This document shows, one piece after another, positions 3,860 through 30,519 of a DNA stretch of 42,185 nt. The notes under the pieces are model-generated. The model had not been told where the DNA came from and searched no databases. It worked only from the letters and a program-made list of their open reading frames with translations. Source of the stretch: a virus. The position numbers were made by a program, and so were the translations under genes. How positions within the stretch are numbered: the first letter of the stretch is position 1; each line of letters opens with the position of its first letter. Location: the IMG/VR virus record IMGVR_UViG_3300033141_001004, positions 1 to 42,185 of that record, one strand, 5' to 3'.

Positions 3860-4074
3860 TGTTTGCCTCCAATCTCGTATTCATCATCCCCACAATTAGG
3901 GCACTTCTCGACCATGTAGTTATCTCGCCACATCCGATATGTACCGCAGTTCCCACACTTTACAGAATCCTCTACTTGTTCAGAATATAGGGGTGCTTCG
4001 CATACGTCACACCCACACTCCTGAAAGCAATCGGGATAATCCCTTAAGTGAGGCTCGTAGCATTTCCTAAACAT
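3856..4074 (-). CDS. Small multi-zinc-ribbon protein (72 aa)
   Basis: Nine cysteines, including CGCDVC (20-25), CGNC (40-43) and CPNCG (58-62), consistent with one or two zinc ribbons. The start follows AAAGGAGG with a 7-base spacer. A nucleic-acid or protein adaptor is likely; no enzyme domain is present. It ends in ATGA overlap with the minigene. Confidence 0.8.
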   Translation of the reverse strand: MFRKCYEPHLRDYPDCFQECGCDVCEAPLYSEQVEDSVKCGNCGTYRMWRDNYMVEKCPNCGDDEYEIGGKQ

Positions 4075-4098
4075 CCTTGCACCTCCTTTGGTTTTACC

Positions 4099-4245
4099 TT
4101 ACTTATCGAGGGCTTCAATTATCTCCCGTGATAGTTGGTCGAGGTATCTATCAATGAAGTGAGGGACATTTGTTTCTGACCGATTCCAACACGGCGATTT
4201 CTTGATTATCTCTTTTAACCTCTCTATTGCTTCTTCTCTACTCAT
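4099..4245 (-). CDS. Small SREEAI protein (48 aa)
   Basis: ATG at 4245 after AAGGGAG, stop TAA at 4099. It begins MSREEAIERLKEIIKK and is predicted largely helical, ending in REIIEALDK. It contains a single Cys. It directly follows the 286-base structured non-coding segment, so its translation could be controlled by that RNA. The function is unknown. Confidence 0.75.
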   Translation of the reverse strand: MSREEAIERLKEIIKKSPCWNRSETNVPHFIDRYLDQLSREIIEALDK

Positions 4246-7125: not shown

Positions 7126-7551
7126 ATGATGTCTTGGTCAAACGTGTGTGTTGAGGGATTTTGTTTTGGCGATAAAGATGATAGTGGTAATTACCCGTGT
7201 GGGCGGAGTTGCCCCTCTTGTCTTTGCCTTGAAAACGGGCACTGCCCCCATTTTGCATATTCGGAAACCACAGAGCGGATGGTCGCTGTATTCCCTCCGT
7301 TGCGCCTTGTCTTGTGGGATAGGCTTATTATTTTTGTTACTGAAACTCTATATTGGAAGCTGAGGTGGTGGTTCTGGGATTGTTTATGGTTCAATCGTAG
7401 GAAAACGAGGGCTTTCTTTGCCAATATCCCCATTGCGACCAAAGAGAACTGTCCTATTGTAGAAGACCTTGATAGGGAGGTAACGGAGGCAACTGAAAAA
7501 TTCCCCGATTGGTTTTCTGGGGTAAAAAACAAGGCGAATGGTGTGCTATAA
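7126..7551 (+). CDS. Cys-rich N-terminus plus Trp-rich hydrophobic segment (141 aa)
   Basis: Seven cysteines fall in the first 40 residues (8, 13, 25, 29, 32, 34, 40), suggesting a metal cluster such as a compact zinc or iron-sulfur site. Residues 54-90 are hydrophobic and aromatic (LVLWDRLIIFVTETLYW, RWWFWDCLWF) and could associate with the membrane. The tail is soluble and acidic. Two ATGs follow GGAGGTG; the first is used. It is first in the short rightward unit, opposite the main leftward promoter. Function unknown. Confidence 0.75.
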   Translation: MMSWSNVCVEGFCFGDKDDSGNYPCGRSCPSCLCLENGHCPHFAYSETTERMVAVFPPLRLVLWDRLIIFVTETLYWKLRWWFWDCLWFNRRKTRAFFANIPIATKENCPIVEDLDREVTEATEKFPDWFSGVKNKANGVL

Positions 7552-7552
7552 T
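7544..7552 (+). promoter_or_regulatory. Extended -10 promoter before the structured leader
   Basis: TGCTATAAT overlaps the stop of the upstream gene. There is no -35 box at 17 bases. It resembles the late promoters at 12220 and 21330 (consensus TGTG-C/G-TATAAT). Confidence 0.55.
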
Positions 7553-7567
7553 ATATTAGGAGGTTGA

Positions 7568-7591
7568 ATGACCTACCTTTATGCTGGGTGA
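7568..7591 (+). CDS. Seven-residue leader peptide MTYLYAG
   Basis: AGGAGG (7558-7563) is four bases before ATG; the ORF reads ATG ACC TAC CTT TAT GCT GGG TGA. Its last codons and stop (7583-7590) are the 5' arm of the first stem in the RNA that follows, so a translating ribosome would open that stem. This is the geometry of a translation-controlled attenuator. Confidence 0.55.
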   Translation: MTYLYAG

Positions 7592-7757
7592 GTTCTAAGA
7601 TTTCAAATTAGGCGTAAGCACCCAGCCACTAATTAAGTGGAGTGGCGAAATCGTTAAAGACGCTTAGTAGGGCAGGCTGCCGCCTATGGGCGACACCCTG
7701 TTCCGAAAGGTTAAATGAGCTTAACCATCTGGGGGTGGAAGTCCCCTAGCTCCACTT
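7583..7757 (+). ncRNA. Structured leader RNA with alternative stems
   Basis: P1 is eight perfect pairs (GCTGGGTG 7583-7590 with 7619-7626). The segment AAGTGGAG (7635-7642) can pair with CTCCACTT (7750-7757), closing a 123-base domain. Its bases also take part in, or lie within the loop of, local hairpins formed by CCACT 7626-7630 or GCCACT 7625-7630, so the two states exclude each other. Inside lie CGCC-TATG-GGCG (7681-7692), a CCGAAAGG tetraloop, GGTTAA/TTAACC (7709-7726) and GGGG/CCCC (7731-7746). The small gene at 7769 starts 12 bases after. No known family recognised. Confidence 0.6.
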
Positions 7758-7768
7758 TAAGGATTGAG

Positions 7769-9160: not shown

Positions 9161-9361
9161 TATAATTGCTTGTAATCTCTCTGCCTGTGCCGTTAGTGTA
9201 GCGATGTACGACTCTTTGTGCTCTGGTGTGATACCTATGCAGACTAGGTATTCAGGGTTGTTCTCTATCATCTCTAGTTCTTCTTTGGTCTGGCGTAGTG
9301 CTAACTTGTCCCCTTCTTTACCATCAACCCATTTTTGTTCTTCGTAGTCATAAGCATTCAT
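9158..9361 (-). CDS. Small helical hypothetical protein (67 aa)
   Basis: ATG at 9361, preceded by GGAGGTAAAGGATT. Highly charged helix (ALRQTKEELEMIENN) and an Ala/Gln-rich C-terminal helix (IATLTAQAERLQAII), likely coiled coil. No family recognised. Confidence 0.72.
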   Translation of the reverse strand: MNAYDYEEQKWVDGKEGDKLALRQTKEELEMIENNPEYLVCIGITPEHKESYIATLTAQAERLQAII

Positions 9362-9370
9362 AATCCTTTA

Positions 9371-9400
9371 CCTCCATAATGTATTTATACCTAAGATTAG
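9371..9400 (-). repeat. Leader box repeat, copy 2
   Basis: Minus strand CTTAGGTATAAATACATTA then TGGAGG. It differs from copy 1 by loss of one T and by the G-run. It provides the ribosome site of the gene at 9361. A related AAATACATTAGGAGG occurs before the gene starting at 35363. Confidence 0.6.
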
Positions 9401-9404
9401 TATT

Positions 9405-9623
9405 TTATTTTAGGTATTCGTAGCCTTGCCAGTTTTCGGGTGTTCTCATTGCAGATTCAATCGCTTCACTGCAAGTTATAGCATCGCCGAAGGTTAATAT
9501 GTCATAAGCGTGGTTGACTATATTCTTAGCGACTATGTAGGCGTGCTCTTTGCGTTCGGGGTCGGAGCAGACAGCGTTTATTAATTCGTTGTCAGGCTCT
9601 AGTGTCTTAGGTGTTCTTATCAT
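9405..9623 (-). CDS. Small hypothetical protein (72 aa)
   Basis: ATG at 9623 follows GGGGGT; the reading frame runs further up but through the promoter, so this start is preferred. Helical, with EHAYIVAKNIVNHAYDILTFGDAI. First gene of the leftward three-gene unit. No known domain. Confidence 0.72.
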   Translation of the reverse strand: MIRTPKTLEPDNELINAVCSDPERKEHAYIVAKNIVNHAYDILTFGDAITCSEAIESAMRTPENWQGYEYLK

Positions 9624-9654
9624 CTTGTAACCCCCAATATACTTTAATACCTCT

Positions 9655-9683
9655 ATTATACAATCAGAACAGGCAAAAGTCAA
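9655..9683 (-). promoter_or_regulatory. Leftward promoter of the 9623-8589 unit
   Basis: Minus strand TTGACT (9678-9683), 17 bases, TATAAT (9655-9660). The third, divergent leader box forms the start of its transcript. Confidence 0.8.
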
Positions 9684-9695
9684 GCGATATGGCAC

Positions 9696-10236
9696 TATTT
9701 TTATTCAGTTTCTAAAGTCTTTATACTTTAGCACGGATGTTCTAATACAATGACGGAACTATGACTGCCTAGATAGATGTACCCGATTGCCTATATCATG
9801 CCTAAACCCTAAAATATACACTAAGAAGATACATCATTAGAATATGAGACACGCTACAATCAATATCTGAGCGTTTATATAACAAAGTAATAGGATAGGG
9901 GGTATCCGGTAGCTGTTTACTTGTTAGCGTTATGCTTGGGGTTAAACACTCGGGTCTCGAGGTTATTGTTGGTTCGGGTTAAACCCCCCTAACTAACACA
10001 TTAGGGACACCTAAACTAAATGTTAGGACACCCTAAACCTCCCATTTAGAGTGATAATTCAGGTCTGCAGTTCTATTCGTGCCTGCAATAACGCACATAA
10101 CTCCTATTATACGCCCCCATAGAGAGTAAGTCCAGATGCGAAGGGTTGTGGTGGGTAGCTTTGGATTATATATGTTTAACCCATTTCCAACAATTTAGGT
10201 TTAGGGTATTCTGAGGGATGGGGTAATTAGGGGGTA
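9696..10236. other. 541-bp non-coding region between divergent units
   Basis: No gene with a credible start is seen. It contains GGGTTAAACCC (9976-9986, odd palindrome), GGGGTTAAAC at 9938, and repeated TTAGG/CCTAA elements: CCTAAACCCTAAA at 9801, CCTAA at 9988, the two palindromes at 10001-10036, and TTTAGGTTTAGGG at 10194. This looks like a control region or second origin rather than decayed genes. Confidence 0.6.
10001..10036. promoter_or_regulatory. Paired operator-like palindromes TTAGG-N4-CCTAA
   Basis: TTAGG-GACA-CCTAA (10001-10014) and TTAGG-ACAC-CCTAA (10023-10036), each with perfect 5-base arms. Centres are 22 bp apart, two helical turns, as for dimers binding the same face. They lie 200 bp before the first rightward promoter. 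Confidence 0.55.
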
Positions 10237-12385: not shown

Positions 12386-12912
12386 GTAGAACTTACCCCG
12401 TTCATCCGCAAAAAGAAGAACACCGCAGATTAATGACCGACCCCTCATATAGACCTGAAGTGTCAAGGGATGTTGCGAATATTTGCAGTATACTTGATAT
12501 AAAAAGCCCCAACACTCATTACAGATGGCTCAGGGAATATGAGAGGGGTAATGGGGAGTTTGATTTAAGAAAAGCCCTTAATGATAATAAGGAAGAACTC
12601 TTTGATGCCTTAATGAAGGCTGTTAAAAATGGGAGACCGAATTCACAGATATTAAAGCTATTCACCCAATTAACGGGTGATTTAGTAGATAGGAAAGAGG
12701 AGAGTATAAGGGTTGACTTTACCCCAACAGACAGAATTAGAATCGGTGCCGAACTCAGAGACCACCTTAGACGAGAATGGGAAACTACTGGAAACTGCCC
12801 TGTGTGTGGGCAGTGTAAAGCACTTCGCCACGAAGTATGCGTGGATTCAAAATCAGAACTCCCTGAAGATAGAGAAGTGGCAACCCTGGGATTACCTGCT
12901 GGACTTGATTGA
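12382..12912 (+). CDS. terS: Putative small terminase subunit (176 aa)
   Basis: The position, directly before the large terminase, and a helical N-terminal domain (VSRDVANICSILDI, THYRWLREYERG) suit a DNA-recognition terminase subunit. The middle has KALNDNKEELFDALMKAVKNG. The last 66 codons overlap the large-subunit ORF by 200 bases, and the tail contains CPVCGQC. The unusual overlap makes the true C-terminus uncertain. Assigned by context more than by motif. Confidence 0.6.
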   Translation: MSRTYPVHPQKEEHRRLMTDPSYRPEVSRDVANICSILDIKSPNTHYRWLREYERGNGEFDLRKALNDNKEELFDALMKAVKNGRPNSQILKLFTQLTGDLVDRKEESIRVDFTPTDRIRIGAELRDHLRREWETTGNCPVCGQCKALRHEVCVDSKSELPEDREVATLGLPAGLD

Positions 12913-14317
12913 CATAATCAAAACATATAACCTCGTTTATATATTAAAAGCGTCCCAGTTGGGTATTTCGTGGTTAATGGCGATTATAAACGACCACATA
13001 GCTAATTTTAATGAGACGGCTAAGTGTTTGCTTTTAAGTCAGGGGCAGGTAGAAGCTCAGGATTTGCTCTCTAAAGTTAATTTCATACATGAGAGATTGC
13101 CCGATTGGCTCAAACTCCCCGTAGATAAGGACAATCGTGAACTATTTGCTCTTAAAGGGAATAGGGCTGAGGTCAGGGCTTTACCCTCCACCGAGAAAGC
13201 GGGGCATGGATTTCAGGGTTCTTTGATAACAAGGGATGAGTTGGCAAGGCACGAATATGCCAGAGACAATTACAGGGCTGTAGCTCGTTCTGGAGCCCCG
13301 ATGGTGGAACTCTCAACGGCTAACAAGCAAGACCCGACCAACTACTTCCAAGAGAAGACCGAGGAATACTATTATCACCCCGAAACAGTAAAGAGGGTTT
13401 TGCCCTCTGGGGTAGAGATATACACCAATCCAACCAAACCAGGGACTTGCCTTGTGTTTCTGGCGTGGTGGTTGAGACCTGTCAGGGAAGAGGGGTTGAC
13501 CCTTCAGGAATGGTGGGATAGTAGGATAGCCCCACGGTTCACTTCATTAGAGATTGAGGAGCAGTTCCCCTCGTCAATTCAAGACGTCTTCAAGCCATCA
13601 ATCACAAAGGCTTATTTTGAAACTCAAGCCCTAGAAGATATGGGATATGATGTTATGCCTCCGATTAAACAGGATACTATAAACACATTTAACAATGTGG
13701 TAAGGGTGTATAAACTACCTATAGCTGGGAGGAAGTATTTAGTTTTCACCGACCCCTCCGATGGTGTAGAAGACCCCTTTGTTACTGGGGTGATGGACTT
13801 TGTTACAGGGGAAATCGTCTGCTCCGCTACGGGGATGGAACGGATAGACCGAGTAGCCGAGATACACGATTATTTGGTAAGAGAATATAAGGCTACCAAT
13901 TCGTTCGAGTATAATGGGAGTGTCGGGGGTGCTTTCTGGAAATGCCTGCAAGACCTCAACACCCCCCATCAAGCCCCAAGAAGGAAGACTGACGGCTCAA
14001 TTGACATTGGCAAGAAGGGGCAAACCGTGTCAGGTCAGCATAAGGAAAAGATTATCGGCGATTTAGCCTCTTTAGGTGTTGCTAAAAGACAGATAGTGTG
14101 CCATGACCGAGAGTTTATGCAACAGGCAAAGATGGTTCAAAGGGATGGGGGCAAACCCATAATGGACAGAAACCAAACCTACGATTGGGTAATGATGATG
14201 GCTGGATTATGGCAGTTACAAAAATACACGCCCAGAGTTTCATTTAAGGCGTATACATTAGAACCAGATATGGATGGTAATTATGGGAATACCCTCGAAC
14301 CAGGAGTGTTTAGATGA
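12713..14317 (+). CDS. terL: Terminase large subunit (534 aa)
   Basis: Packages DNA into the prohead: an N-terminal ATPase and a C-terminal RNase H-like nuclease. The Walker A variant KASQLGIS is at 79-86; the Walker B-type DE is in LITRDELARHEY; coupling motif III is in VELSTANKQDP. Nuclease acids lie in VFTDPSDGVEDPF and in YDWVMMMAGLW. The TTG start at 12713 has GAGGAG ten bases upstream; the only other start in frame, a GTG near residue 32, lacks a site. The 200-base overlap with the preceding ORF is large. Confidence 0.9.
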   Translation: MTLPQQTELESVPNSETTLDENGKLLETALCVGSVKHFATKYAWIQNQNSLKIEKWQPWDYLLDLIDIIKTYNLVYILKASQLGISWLMAIINDHIANFNETAKCLLLSQGQVEAQDLLSKVNFIHERLPDWLKLPVDKDNRELFALKGNRAEVRALPSTEKAGHGFQGSLITRDELARHEYARDNYRAVARSGAPMVELSTANKQDPTNYFQEKTEEYYYHPETVKRVLPSGVEIYTNPTKPGTCLVFLAWWLRPVREEGLTLQEWWDSRIAPRFTSLEIEEQFPSSIQDVFKPSITKAYFETQALEDMGYDVMPPIKQDTINTFNNVVRVYKLPIAGRKYLVFTDPSDGVEDPFVTGVMDFVTGEIVCSATGMERIDRVAEIHDYLVREYKATNSFEYNGSVGGAFWKCLQDLNTPHQAPRRKTDGSIDIGKKGQTVSGQHKEKIIGDLASLGVAKRQIVCHDREFMQQAKMVQRDGGKPIMDRNQTYDWVMMMAGLWQLQKYTPRVSFKAYTLEPDMDGNYGNTLEPGVFR

Positions 14318-17813: not shown

Positions 17814-20800
17814 GTGAGCGATAGATGGTGGAAACCTAAAAGCGTTTTCTTAGACGAAGAATTAACTGAGGCTGAGGGGCAGAGGAACTGGGCTTTGCCT
17901 ATGACCCAAACCGTTCCAGCTTACGAGAAACCGAAACAGTGGTTTGAGCAAGTATCTGAAAAGATGGGGGAGGGTATTGCCAAAGTCCCCATTTTGCCAA
18001 AAGCGTTAGAGTTTATCGCTCCAGCCTTTGAGTTTATTCACGAGCATATAGAACAACCCTTTGCGGCGATTATCACTTCACCTTGGGCACCTGACCTCCC
18101 TTGGAAGAAGGGGGAGTCTTGGTCTGAGCATAAAACACGAGAATATAAAGCATGGGACGCACCGACCTATGTTAAGGGTCTGGCTGAGTTTGCCATGCCT
18201 TTGTGGTGGCTTCCTTATTTCAGTTGGGCTGGTGCAGGCGCAAGGGCTTTAGGTGTTGGTTCAAAGGCTGCCTCCAAGATTGCCAAATCAGGCAAGATGT
18301 TGCGTGTTAGCGATAAAGGTTTTCTCCCCCCACCCGAACTCTTGGATAATGTTCTATTCAGGGCGGGTCGTTTAACGAGGGCAATGGAGCACGTTCCCAT
18401 TGTTAATAAAATAGTGAAAATGGTTGGGGGTGAAGGGGCATTTATCTCTAAAAAAGAAGCGGGGAGAATATCACAATTAGCCAAAGCGGGTGAGATTGCA
18501 GGGGGTAAGGATGCCTTAACACTTGCTAAAATGGAACTGGTGAAACTGGGCTTTCTTAATAGTATGAGAGACGGTGTGTCAAGGTTACTCGTTCCTAAAT
18601 TACAGGTATTAGAACACGCTACAAAGGGGGGATTGCCCAGATTGCTTGCGATGGATGCTAGGGGTGTTGTTGGTAATATTGTTAGCAAAACAGGCAAGAG
18701 CCAGTATTTGTATGATGTTTTAGAGGGTGCTATCAAGAACAAGCAAGGCTATAAATTCCTCACTAAAGAAGCCGAGAAATATGTTGATACCTTAACTGAA
18801 GTTGTAGATGACATTTGGAAGATGGCAAAGCAAGAGGGTTTAAGGATGCCCAAGGAGAAGTTCCTCCATAGAATAGTCAAGGGTAAGTTAAACCCCGATA
18901 CTGGTAAATTTGAAAAGTCTGAGTTCGGTTCGTTTATTTCCAAGAGCCGTATACATGAAACCATGAAAGAGGGCGTGGAGCAAGCTGAGAAGATAGGGTC
19001 AAGATTGGAATACGGGTTGGATATTTCGGAGAGTATCACATCTACTATTAGTCATTATATGAGACAGATAGCTAAAAAAAGGTTTAATAAAGCCCTTCAC
19101 CCATTAGGGAAAACTCCGAGGGCGAAGGTTTTGGAAGCAATGGGGGAAGAGGGCACTGAACTTATGATGATGAGGACAGCACAGAAAATGGGTGCGGGGG
19201 TTGCTAACCCTGAGAGGTATTCCCAACTCATAGATTTAGAAAAACAAATCACAAGGCATTATAAAGGCAAGCAGATAATCGGTGAGGATTTGGTTCAATT
19301 TACCAAGCACCCATCATTTAAGAATAAACTATTCCCCACAGAGGTTGTAAAAACAGCCGAGAAGATTTTAGGCGATGAGGGGCAGAAGTGGCTCACCACA
19401 ATGGCGCAAATATCTGGTACGTCTCGTATGTTGGTGGCGGCGATGGACTTATCAGCCCCGTTCATTCAGGGGTTGGCTGTGGCTGGCAGAAACCCCGCAG
19501 CGTGGGCGGGTATGCTAAAGAGGAATTTGGAGTTCTTTATAAAACCTGAGAACTTCTATAAATATATGACCGACCCCAAAACAATGGCAATCGCCTCGGA
19601 AAGAATATCAGCAGGCGGTTCGGGTTCTACCTTTGAGTTCTTTAATGCACTTTTACCCCTACAAAGAGGACTGGGTAAAGTTCCAACAGTTGGTAAACCA
19701 TTAAAGGGATTGGTTGGGCAAACCTATGGTAGGGCGGAGGCTGCATTTTCAGGTGGTGGTGAAGCTGCTAGGAATTATATGTGGCAAGCGATGAGGCATA
19801 GAGCTCTTAATCCTGATGGGACATTAAACCGTGCCTTAGCTATGGATTTAGCCAGAACGATAGATAGAATGACGGGTGTTATGTCTACTGAGGCTTTAGC
19901 GATAGGAAGGACACAGCAGGACTTTGAAAACGCCTTCGTATTCTTTGCCCCACGTTACACTAGGGCTGGTCTGTCATTCGTCTCAGACGCTCTCAGGGGT
20001 GGTATGGCTGGGGCGGAGGCACGTAAATCGCTGGCTGCTTTAACGGCTGGCGGGGCATCAATGTATTATGGTGTGTGTAAGGCATTGGGGCAACAGCCAA
20101 ACTTAAATCCCAATTCTGGCAGGTTTATGACTATAAAAGTGGGGGATACTCACATCGGAATAGGCGGAATAATGGTCGCATTAATGAGGTTTGGTTATGA
20201 TGTGGCGGCTACAGCGTTAGAAGACCCGATTAATTTAGTTAAACCCCTAAGTGAAGGTTCGGTAAATAGGTGGGATAACCCGTTTATAAGGTTTCTATAT
20301 GCAAGGACAGCCCCATTAACATCAACTCTATATGGAACATTGGTAGAACAAGCGGATTACTTCGGTGAGCCATTTGAAAGTGTAGGAGATTGGGCTAATT
20401 TCATGGCAGATAAAGTTACCCCGATTGCCGTTCAGGGTGTGATAGACGACCCTTCTATAGAATTGGGTGTGGCTGAGTTCGCTGGTTTAAGAGCGTTTCC
20501 TAAGAGTGCGTGGGAACTTTTAGACGAAGAGAGGGATGACATTGCGTTAAGGGAATTTAATGATGTCTATGACAATCTAAACGATTTAGAACAGACAAGG
20601 GTGGATAAGTTCCCCACAGTTCAAAGGCTACAGAAGGATATAGATGCCCAGACTGTAGCGAGGGGAGATGCCACAAGCGTAGCGTGGCTTAACTGGGAAC
20701 GTGAAAAGAACGTAGCGAGAGAAGTTTACGAAGAAACATTACATAATTTACAGAGAGCCTATGATGATGGCGTTATTACGGGTGTTCAGTTTAGGGAGAG

Positions 20801-21317
20801 GATGTCTGATGCTGGATACGGGCTTGGGGCGACTTATGAGCACATAAATAAACAACCCGAATACAAAGAGGTTATGGAAACTCTTAAAAAGCCTCGCAAA
20901 ATAACCGACAGGCACATTAAAGACATAGCCTCTGCCGAATTCATGGATAGGATGTATAGAAAGGATGAAGATGGCAGGACTGAGTTTGAGGATAAATACG
21001 GGCTATTCCAATATGACAAATACAACGCCTACATAGAGGAATTCAGGGCTAAATACGGTGAGGAAATCTACCAGTATGTTCTCGAAGAAAAGCGGGAGAG
21101 GGATGAGAACCTACCTCCGCTAGCGAAAGAATACCAAAGGTCTAAAGAAATAATGAAACCCTATTGGGCAATTAAGGATAGGGTTATAAAGCAGTTCGGC
21201 AGGGCTTTTGCGGAGAGTTCACGGGGTCAGAGTTTAATAACCAAGATGAGAAAGGCACTGCGCCTCCAGAACCCTTTAATTGAAAAATATTACCAGATGT
21301 TCTATGCCCAAAAGTAG
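17814..21317 (+). CDS. Very large virion-associated protein (1167 aa), polyvalent/ejection-type
   Basis: GTG start with GAGGAG seven bases before. A 3.5-kb gene between portal and scaffold. A region near 120-150 is hydrophobic (FAMPLWWLPYFSWAGAG). The middle has ISGTSRMLVAAMDLSAPFI and NAFVFFAPRYTRAGLSFVSD, a pattern found in the LPD38-like part of large phage polyvalent proteins, with hydrophobic stretches near ALTAGGASMYYG. The last 300 residues are charged helices. No lysozyme or protease motif was found. A DNA-ejection protein that enters or crosses the host envelope is the best guess. Confidence 0.65.
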   Translation: MSDRWWKPKSVFLDEELTEAEGQRNWALPMTQTVPAYEKPKQWFEQVSEKMGEGIAKVPILPKALEFIAPAFEFIHEHIEQPFAAIITSPWAPDLPWKKGESWSEHKTREYKAWDAPTYVKGLAEFAMPLWWLPYFSWAGAGARALGVGSKAASKIAKSGKMLRVSDKGFLPPPELLDNVLFRAGRLTRAMEHVPIVNKIVKMVGGEGAFISKKEAGRISQLAKAGEIAGGKDALTLAKMELVKLGFLNSMRDGVSRLLVPKLQVLEHATKGGLPRLLAMDARGVVGNIVSKTGKSQYLYDVLEGAIKNKQGYKFLTKEAEKYVDTLTEVVDDIWKMAKQEGLRMPKEKFLHRIVKGKLNPDTGKFEKSEFGSFISKSRIHETMKEGVEQAEKIGSRLEYGLDISESITSTISHYMRQIAKKRFNKALHPLGKTPRAKVLEAMGEEGTELMMMRTAQKMGAGVANPERYSQLIDLEKQITRHYKGKQIIGEDLVQFTKHPSFKNKLFPTEVVKTAEKILGDEGQKWLTTMAQISGTSRMLVAAMDLSAPFIQGLAVAGRNPAAWAGMLKRNLEFFIKPENFYKYMTDPKTMAIASERISAGGSGSTFEFFNALLPLQRGLGKVPTVGKPLKGLVGQTYGRAEAAFSGGGEAARNYMWQAMRHRALNPDGTLNRALAMDLARTIDRMTGVMSTEALAIGRTQQDFENAFVFFAPRYTRAGLSFVSDALRGGMAGAEARKSLAALTAGGASMYYGVCKALGQQPNLNPNSGRFMTIKVGDTHIGIGGIMVALMRFGYDVAATALEDPINLVKPLSEGSVNRWDNPFIRFLYARTAPLTSTLYGTLVEQADYFGEPFESVGDWANFMADKVTPIAVQGVIDDPSIELGVAEFAGLRAFPKSAWELLDEERDDIALREFNDVYDNLNDLEQTRVDKFPTVQRLQKDIDAQTVARGDATSVAWLNWEREKNVAREVYEETLHNLQRAYDDGVITGVQFRERMSDAGYGLGATYEHINKQPEYKEVMETLKKPRKITDRHIKDIASAEFMDRMYRKDEDGRTEFEDKYGLFQYDKYNAYIEEFRAKYGEEIYQYVLEEKRERDENLPPLAKEYQRSKEIMKPYWAIKDRVIKQFGRAFAESSRGQSLITKMRKALRLQNPLIEKYYQMFYAQK

Positions 21318-21329
21318 TTAAAAATAGTG

Positions 21330-21338
21330 TGGTATAAT
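21330..21338 (+). promoter_or_regulatory. Internal late promoter, extended -10
   Basis: TG-G-TATAAT at 21330-21338 in the context GTGTGGTATAATAAGGATAG, closely matching 12218-12234. No -35 match. It would give a separate head-gene transcript starting with the structured leader. Confidence 0.65.
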
Positions 21339-21375
21339 AAGGATAGAGAACCTTAACAACATAATGCTTGCTGGG

Positions 21376-21553
21376 TGGGAACTTGGCGGTAGGGGTTGGC
21401 TTCCCTGTCTGGTTAATCTACCTAGTTGGGTATCCCAAGACGAATCCCAACCTAGCCCAGTAAGTTAAATAATCTGCACATAAGAGGTCGGGAGCTTGCT
21501 TAACTTATAGGCGTGTGTTTCCCGACCTCGCCTATTTGAAGGGCAAGTTCCCA
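21376..21553 (+). ncRNA. Structured leader upstream of the scaffold gene
   Basis: The 255-base gap 21318-21572 is closed by a 10-pair long-range helix: TGGGAACTTG (21376-21385) with CAAGTTCCCA (21544-21553). Inside are GGTTGG (21394-21399) with CCAACC (21447-21452), TTGGG-TAT-CCCAA (21426-21438), and GAGGTCGGGA (21484-21493) with TCCCGACCTC (21520-21529). ATAGGCG (21507-21513) can instead pair with CGCCTAT (21529-21535), which traps the previous 3' arm, so the two hairpins compete. The scaffold's AAGGAGG follows within 10 bases. An ORF of 34 codons (21364-21468) has no ribosome site. Confidence 0.6.
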
Positions 21554-21572
21554 AAATAAAAAGGAGGAAATC

Positions 21573-22283
21573 ATGGATACAGAGGAGAAGGTTACTGAAG
21601 GTACAGTACCAACAGAACCAACCCCAGAGGAGAAAGTGGCTTCTCTACAGAAAGAACTTGAGGCTAAGGCTCGTGAGGCTGAAATAGCCACTAAAAGGGC
21701 ACAAGGTCTTGAGGGTTCACTAAAGGAAAAGGACAGACTTTTACGAGACCAATCCAGCATCGACTCAAGGTTCGGCAATATTGAGGACACACTCCAAATC
21801 CTCACCTACGCCGTTGGCAAGGGGGGTGATATAGAAGCCCCCGATGGGGAAACCCTTTCAAAACATATAACTAGCTTAAAAAGGGAGAGGGAGCTAAAGG
21901 AGAAAGAATCCAAGAAAATGGCTGAACAGGCTGAATACAATGCCCAAGCCAACGCTGTCTGGGCGGAAGCTCAAACAAATATCACTGACAAGAAAGACTT
22001 AAAAATGATTGAATTACTACTCTTAAATGGTGATATAGCGGGGGCAAAGGAATTGATAGGAAGCCCCAAAGAGGAGGCTAAAGTGGAAACTGAGGCAGAG
22101 ATGAAGGAAAGGTTAGAAAAGGAATTCTTAATAAAACACAATCTTGCAAAACCAGAAACTGCCCAAGCATCAAGCGCAGGCAAGAGGTTCTATACACGGG
22201 CGGAGATAGATAATCCCGATTTCTACGCTAAAAATAGAGAGGACATCTTGGAAGCGACACGGGAGGGCAGAGTCAAAGATTAA
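21573..22283 (+). CDS. Scaffolding protein (236 aa)
   Basis: Guides coat assembly and leaves before or during packaging. Immediately before the coat gene, with acidic, helical, Ala/Lys/Glu-rich sequence: KVASLQKELEAKAREAE and LKRERELKEKESKKMAEQ give strong coiled coils. Disordered acidic N-terminus (EEKVTEGTVPTEPTPEE). AAGGAGG is seven bases before the ATG. Confidence 0.82.
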   Translation: MDTEEKVTEGTVPTEPTPEEKVASLQKELEAKAREAEIATKRAQGLEGSLKEKDRLLRDQSSIDSRFGNIEDTLQILTYAVGKGGDIEAPDGETLSKHITSLKRERELKEKESKKMAEQAEYNAQANAVWAEAQTNITDKKDLKMIELLLLNGDIAGAKELIGSPKEEAKVETEAEMKERLEKEFLIKHNLAKPETAQASSAGKRFYTRAEIDNPDFYAKNREDILEATREGRVKD

Positions 22284-22295
22284 AGGAGAAAAATC

Positions 22296-23153
22296 ATGGC
22301 ATATGACGGTGGAACAGACCCTACCCTAGCAGAACTAATATCTAGGTATTGGGTTCCACAGGTTTATTCACAGGAAGCCTTGGTAGCTACGAAATCACAT
22401 CTCGTATGCGCAAATGCTTTCACGCATCGGTTCAAGAAACAACTCAAGAGGGGGCATACCGTCTATATACCCGTAACGGCTAATGTCTCCACCACTGAGG
22501 TAACGCCTGGCACAGAGCCAACAGCGGCAGACGCCTCTACTACTGGTGTTACAATCGCCATAGACAAGTGGCGTGAGGCTACCGCCAACATTTCCCCGCT
22601 TATGGAAGTTGAGGAACTCGCTGACTACCTCCAAGCTGCCACGGTGGAAATCGCTTACGCATTGGACAAGCACGTTGATACCACAGTCGGGGCGTTATTC
22701 TCAACACTCAACGGGAGTTCGGTTCAGGGTTCGGACGGGCAGACGTTCACAGACGAAATCTTCAGGACGTTAATCCAAGACATGGACGAAAACGATGTCC
22801 CCGATGAAGGCAGGTTCATAATTGGAGACCCGTCAACCAAGAACGATATGCTTGGCATTGATAAGTTCGTCAGGCAAGACTACATCAACGGCTCACCAAC
22901 ATCAAACGGGAGATTCGGGCAACTGTATAATGCAACCGTCTACATCACCAATAACCTGACGGCTGCGTCAACGGGTAACTACGGTGTCTATGCCCACCCA
23001 GACGCAATCGGTGTTGTTATCCAGATGGGGCCGAACATGAAATACCATGACCTTAGCTGGAAGTTCAAGCATCAGATTACAGGCGATATTGCCTATGGTG
23101 CTGCCGAACTCAGAGACGGCTTCGGTGAGGCGTTTTACACGAGGTCTAGCTAG
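22296..23153 (+). CDS. Major capsid protein (285 aa)
   Basis: HK97-fold coat expected. Key traits: AYDGGTDPTLAELISRYW start, KRGHTVYIPV, a T/A/E-rich strand, DKHVDTTVGALFSTLNG, and FIIGDPSTKNDMLGIDKFV, which recall the N4-gp56/P22-like coat families. Length fits (280-320). It follows the scaffold by 12 bases with a strong AAAGGAG site. Confidence 0.88.
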   Translation: MAYDGGTDPTLAELISRYWVPQVYSQEALVATKSHLVCANAFTHRFKKQLKRGHTVYIPVTANVSTTEVTPGTEPTAADASTTGVTIAIDKWREATANISPLMEVEELADYLQAATVEIAYALDKHVDTTVGALFSTLNGSSVQGSDGQTFTDEIFRTLIQDMDENDVPDEGRFIIGDPSTKNDMLGIDKFVRQDYINGSPTSNGRFGQLYNATVYITNNLTAASTGNYGVYAHPDAIGVVIQMGPNMKYHDLSWKFKHQITGDIAYGAAELRDGFGEAFYTRSS

Positions 23154-30015: not shown

Positions 30016-30519
30016 ATGTGGAATTGGCTTAAAAAACAAATGGGTCTAGGTGGGGCTATGCGTGCCCATACCGAACTCATCGCCAGAAAGAAAGTATTGA
30101 ATAATGGGGTTTATGAATATACTGATGTTCGCAGGGTTGTTAGAGACAAGGTTGTCACGGATGCTTTCGTAAACTTCGTTGTAGACCAACTACAAACCGA
30201 GGACTCCACTTTTGGGGATTTCAAATATCACGACTCTGGTATTGGGACAGGGAACGAAGCGGCGGGGGATACTGCTTTAGGGACACCCTGGGGTGGGTCA
30301 AGGGATGTGGGGACTCAAACCGAGGGGGCTTCGGCTAACATTTATAAAAGCGTAGCCACCACGACCTACAACGCCTCCAAAGCGATTACTGAACATGGTC
30401 TATTCAATGCCTCTTCTGGGGGAACGTTAATGGATAGGACAAAATTCACTGCAATAAACGTGGTAGATACAAACCAAATAGAATTCACATTCCAGATAAC
30501 CTTTAGTTCAGGTGGATAA
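30016..30519 (+). CDS. Structural protein, neck or tail (167 aa)
   Basis: MWNWLKKQMGLGG amphipathic start, ARKKVLNNGVYEYTDVRRVV and a segment FKYHDSGIGTGN with TALGTPWGG, then LMDRTKFTAINVVDTNQIEFTF. I have seen this layout in phage structural modules next to adaptor genes; exact role unknown. Confidence 0.6.
   Translation: MWNWLKKQMGLGGAMRAHTELIARKKVLNNGVYEYTDVRRVVRDKVVTDAFVNFVVDQLQTEDSTFGDFKYHDSGIGTGNEAAGDTALGTPWGGSRDVGTQTEGASANIYKSVATTTYNASKAITEHGLFNASSGGTLMDRTKFTAINVVDTNQIEFTFQITFSSGG

Follow-up and report, generated by a model that had tools for sequence, protein, structure and literature searches.

The noncoding leader in front of the head genes of an uncultivated phage holds a G-rich arm (A) that can pair with either of two downstream arms (B or C), and this two-way fold recurs in relatives whose letters have largely changed. 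It is therefore probably a real RNA switch, and one that would help to set the amount of head protein. Head proteins are required in large and balanced amounts late in infection, and to our knowledge the way in which uncultivated phages with host-type promoters reach such a balanced supply is poorly understood. That two alternative folds survive a heavy turnover of sequence speaks clearly for a functional RNA switch.

The record analysed, which we call the window, is a virus sequence of 42185 bases (IMG/VR IMGVR_UViG_3300033141_001004). Its features relevant to the leader are:

12713-14317, large-terminase-like protein, upstream of the leader
17814-21317, gene for a 1167-aa protein, directly 5' of the leader
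21318-21572, noncoding leader of 255 nt, between the 1167-aa gene and the scaffold gene
21330-21338, + strand, extended -10 promoter match TGGTATAAT, by pattern match, with no clear -35
21345-21368, + strand, boxA-like element AGAGAACCTTAACAACATAATGCT, where the transcript is expected to begin
21366-21465, + strand, first structured domain, formed by helix 21366-21376 : 21455-21465 and inner pairs, predicted probability 0.93
21376-21553, + strand, long-range helix 21376-21385 : 21544-21553, 10 Watson-Crick pairs
21484-21501, + strand, arm A, G-rich, common to both competing helices
21507-21535, + strand, 7-pair hairpin 21507-21513 : 21529-21535, inside A:C, predicted probability 0.93
21519-21529, + strand, arm B, pairs with 21484-21494 (state A:B)
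21541-21552, + strand, arm C, pairs with 21490-21501 (state A:C)
21562-21567, + strand, Shine-Dalgarno site AGGAGG of the scaffold gene, read from the sequence
21573-22283, + strand, scaffold-like gene, 236 aa, first after the leader, so called from its position before the coat gene
22296-23153, + strand, major head protein (coat), 285 aa, phrog_267 major head protein, E 1e-29

The two open reading frames (ORFs) between the terminase-like gene and the 1167-aa gene have no PHROGs match. The scaffold-like protein matches no family in PHROGs and none at the Pfam cut-off, and it resembles the proteins encoded at this position in relatives. Among sequenced phages, the window has no nucleotide relative, the 1167-aa protein has no relative, and the coat protein has relatives of only 22-27% identity, in cyanophages; searches of bacterial and archaeal genomes with either of two alignments gave no relatives. 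The relatives used here (L-numbered) are IMG/VR contigs found through the 1167-aa protein and two coat-protein groups. In L009, the coat gene (9303-10055) is apparently interrupted just past its start by an intron-like insert, which holds a 158-aa ORF (9430-9906) that might encode an endonuclease, although this is only a guess. In L022 (~3971-4140), L029 (~3950-4100), L053 and L059, the large-protein gene is followed, before the head promoter, by a short ORF that is cysteine-rich and zinc-ribbon-like. We also observed tRNA-like stretches: at 7544-7760 of the window, a promoter match (TGCTATAAT) is followed by a class II tRNA-like stretch (~7640-7758) with an odd insert, called by neither ARAGORN nor Rfam, and the head-gene leader of L023 contains a tRNA-like gene with an inserted stretch (4016-4120; Rfam 39.4 bits) upstream of a boxA-like site.

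An initial annotation of this DNA had described a 10-pair long-range helix and two mutually exclusive hairpins, at 21484-21529 and 21507-21535. The complementarity behind the long-range helix is real, but with an ensemble probability of 0.002 and about 5 kcal/mol above the best fold it is predicted to be a minor conformer and not the main fold; its 5' arm belongs to the first half of the leader, a part that does not align with relatives. Both hairpins are present and could conceivably combine into a pseudoknot, but the helix that truly competes with the 21484 hairpin had been missed: it is the 12-pair A:C (21490-21501 : 21541-21552). A:C is the predicted ground state with a probability of 0.93, and A:B (21484-21494 : 21519-21529; 11 pairs, of which 10 are Watson-Crick and one is G-U) has a probability of 0.06. 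The predicted dominant state combines A:C, the 7-pair hairpin enclosed by it and helix 21366-21376 : 21455-21465, whose domain is window-specific, with no counterpart in the aligned relatives. From the end of arm C to AGGAGG the distance is 9 nt.

The folding energy of the whole leader is modestly low (z -1.64; 10/200 shuffles equally stable), and its best single helix is matched by 3/200 shuffles. The best pair of helices sharing an arm is matched by none of 200, and no such element elsewhere in the 42-kb window, on either strand, is as strong. No Rfam 15 family (riboswitch, r-protein leader) reaches its gathering score in the window, and the best permissive match, SCARNA15 at E 7.4, is attributable to chance. 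A decayed gene, which the initial annotation had raised as a possible refutation, was examined and rejected: the longest ORF that lies wholly within the leader on the sense strand has 34 aa, and the part of L013 that aligns with 21463-21575 is a noncoding leader. For this ORF (21364-21468) as a leader-peptide candidate, no Shine-Dalgarno site was seen 5' of it.

The alignment with L013 covers the last 113 nt of this region (21463-21575). The large protein of L013 is 44% identical to the 1167-aa protein, and its coat was not recovered by the coat searches of the window. Although 17 of 37 arm positions differ between the two leaders, all 12 pairs of A:C are kept (3 double and 3 single changes), as are all 9 shared pairs of A:B (4 double changes, 1 single), with pairs counted by arm position and MAFFT having set B one column out of register. 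Random changes at those positions would keep both helices with a probability of 3e-5. The earlier suggestion that alternative RNA folding tunes head-gene output thus gains support, as both exclusive helices are maintained by compensatory changes and the element keeps its position with respect to the Shine-Dalgarno site in related phages.

A covariance model built on the window and L013 retrieved the leaders of L026 (in 368 kb, E 0.0046) and L104 (in 174 kb, E 0.012) and, weakly, that of L110 at the same place (E 0.47). A direct layout test, for which arms A, B and C were defined after the sequences had been seen and leader limits were drawn manually, with the -10 site and the Shine-Dalgarno site as the two ends, found A/B/C in 8/19 head leaders, window included, in a set that consists mostly of metagenome fragments and is not fully independent. 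Seven of these leaders (window, L013, L026, L104, L110, L109, L003) were matched by 0/300 shuffles; the eighth, L005, is weak (30/300 in a strict gapless test). Six of the seven share a span of 66-69 nt and an A-B loop of 21-24 nt, the gap from arm B to arm C in A/B/C leaders is 11-17 nt, and 7-14 nt separate the end of arm C from the Shine-Dalgarno site. At most pair positions, two to five pair types occur across the seven leaders, and in every one of these leaders A:C is predicted to be more stable than A:B and to enclose 11-17 further pairs. L027 has no A/B/C, yet retains the promoter, boxA and the Shine-Dalgarno site; the element is therefore a module that can be absent.

State A:B resembles a terminator in most relatives. 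In the window, the U tract after arm B is degenerate (GCCUAUUUGA), and no intrinsic terminator (GC-rich hairpin plus U-rich tract) was found in the leader. The 10 nt after arm B contain 4 U in the window and 3 in L110, compared with 5 to 7 in L013, L026, L104, L109 and L003, so that five of six strong relatives have a U-rich tract after A:B. A terminator-like hairpin with a U-rich tract lies between promoter and scaffold gene in 14/25 leaders (among them L003, L004, L005, L020-L023, L026, L029 and L053), against 1.65 expected. Read by eye, the terminator stems of L029/L053 and of L021/L022 change in letters and stay paired. An informal look, as opposed to a systematic scan, revealed no second promoter 3' of the leader terminators; if so, the head genes are reached by readthrough. 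The A/B/C leaders show no antiterminator pairing made before the terminator, and A:C cannot be a classical antiterminator because arm C lies downstream of it. As a separate observation, L029 (4150-4210) and L053 (4190-4250) carry, in pairs, small stem-loops whose loop is UUAG (GCUU-UUAG-GAAGC and similar), which precede the terminator in these head leaders and are possible protein sites.

The same features allow other readings. A:C could be an RNase III processing stem or a 5'-stabilising stem that trims and protects the head-gene mRNA, with A:B a by-product or a terminator for upstream transcription. The rank of A:C as ground state in all seven leaders, its additional inner pairs and its place close to, and outside, the Shine-Dalgarno site would all suit such a stem, for which the RNase III-modulated leader of lambda N offers a precedent (PMC5725501, its reference 29). 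We consider this unlikely, though deserving of weight, since it explains neither the compensatory upkeep of A:B nor the U-rich tract that follows B in most members. Promoter and terminator might instead yield an abundant small phage RNA acting in trans, the head genes being transcribed by readthrough; the 14 leaders with a terminator in this position speak for it, but it appears improbable given that the would-be RNA has no conserved sequence except boxA and that the window and L110 lack the U-rich tract.

The start of the leader bears on which host factors may be involved. The extended -10 match is present where the initial annotation had placed a promoter, at 21330; no -10/-35 pair at this promoter reached the scan cut-off, and an extended -10 site stands at the equivalent place in L013, L017, L022, L026, L027 and L029. 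Immediately 3' of the -10 site, many leaders contain a motif near GNAC[C/T]TTAACAACTGAATA, and in the window CCTTAACAACATAAT at 21351-21365, within the 5' leader, carries a boxA core of the CTTTAACAA type. With a matrix trained on 15 sites, some chosen by eye and the window excluded, the window site scores 20.2, the second best in 42 kb scores 9.0, and 0/200 shuffles of the 42 kb reach the score of the window site. The E. coli rrn boxA, whose sequence we verified at about seven places per E. coli genome, scores 13.0 with this phage matrix.

A boxA pattern search in 30 records gave 14 matches, compared with 2 for the reversed control, and L108 and L121, recovered later by protein similarity alone, also bear a boxA-like site. 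Away from head leaders, 8/11 boxA-like sites are wholly noncoding. A good match is absent from L003, L004, L005, L017, L104 and L110, so that boxA is frequent and not obligatory; as L003, L005, L104 and L110 are A/B/C leaders, boxA and A/B/C are separable. A boxC-like GCTGGGTGGG at 21370 seemed striking after boxA at first. It carries 2 mismatches (P 0.07), a quality of match that occurs 49 times in the window; it did not stand out in a shuffle test over 18 sites, and the other sites lend it no support. Further boxA-like sequences were observed elsewhere: CTTTAGAAACTGAATA on the - strand of the window (9702-9717, score 9.0) is weaker and lies upstream of a leftward promoter match, and in the L013 phage GCACCTTAACAA occurs three times in ~480 bases (G001 30019-30493; L073, L082, L092), at or near gene edges.

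The boxA-like 5' end points to transcription factors of the NusB/S10 type, and not to scaffold, coat or S4. The last three had been suggested as ligands of the leader, and a structured leader directly before the scaffold gene would indeed suit an autogenous translational operator bound by one of them. No sequence-conserved loop or bulge common to the A/B/C leaders was found, however, and we rate such an operator as less probable still than an RNA acting in trans. The E. coli rRNA antitermination complex does contain S4 (PMC6614801), which is not evidence that S4 binds here. That the inverted repeats are functionless products of chance in a spacer, a reading compatible with the modest folding energy and with the short spacers of L015, L016 (both almost leaderless) and L027, which lack the element, is already very unlikely given the shuffle tests, the compensatory changes in both helices between window and L013, and the constant position and spacing.

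With slightly less than even confidence, we favor the reading that the head-gene mRNA begins with a bistable leader of the attenuator type that bears a boxA. From the sequence comparison we infer the following course of events. Transcription would start right after the extended -10 site, so that the transcript would open with the boxA-like element, which may recruit host NusB/S10 and render RNA polymerase more processive. As boxA, A, B and C would be synthesized in this order, A:B would have to form first, C not yet being made. In relatives with a U-rich tract, A:B would act as a partial terminator that ends part of the transcripts; in the window, because the U tract is degenerate, it would at most pause the polymerase and, with arm C left free to touch the Shine-Dalgarno site, delay translation. 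NusB/S10 at boxA would favor readthrough, which adds arm C, and the RNA would refold into the more stable A:C under dismantling of A:B. In E. coli, the rRNA complex resists Rho and can lower intrinsic termination in vitro (PMC6614801).

State A:C would then form a stable stem that caps the mRNA a short way upstream of the ribosome site, a site that it is predicted to leave more open in several members. The predicted openness of the Shine-Dalgarno site rises from 0.52 with A:B forced to 0.84 with A:C in the window, from 0.34 to 0.81 in L013 and from 0.19 to 0.94 in L104; in L003 and L110 it hardly depends on the state, and in L109 the difference is reversed. Owing to this inconsistency, the translational half of the model is weaker than the pairing. 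It is possible, if rather doubtful, that the A/B/C leaders of uncultivated phages form a hitherto undescribed class of two-state RNA element, marked out by its geometry and double complementarity rather than by its letters, which would couple Nus-assisted readthrough of a terminator hairpin to a refolding that opens and protects the ribosome site of the head genes. Together with boxA, the fold suggests that such phages may borrow the rRNA antitermination machinery of the host for their head genes.

Several known systems share parts of this design. In lambda, nutL lies ~200 bp upstream of N, with a structured, RNase III-modulated leader between them (PMC5725501). The phage leader likewise places a boxA-type site near the transcript start, followed by a structured stretch and a ribosome site ~200 nt downstream; unlike in lambda, we found no constant boxB-like hairpin and recognised no N-like phage protein, the gene controlled would be scaffold/coat, and a competition such as A/B/C is not described for N. 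With the boxA (NusB/S10) of rRNA operon leaders it shares the CTTTAACAA core soon after the promoter, but it precedes a protein-coding gene, and the boxC-like match of the window did not stand out in the shuffle test. Attenuators with mutually exclusive hairpins show the same succession of promoter, leader, terminator-type hairpin and alternative pairing of one arm, but here arm C follows the terminator, making A:C a readthrough conformer and not an antiterminator, and the U-rich tract of the window is degenerate. At tI/sib of lambda, a short terminator hairpin gives way to a longer one when polymerase reads through, much as A:B would give way to A:C; sib acts on the upstream gene int, whereas the phage element directly precedes the gene that it presumably controls.
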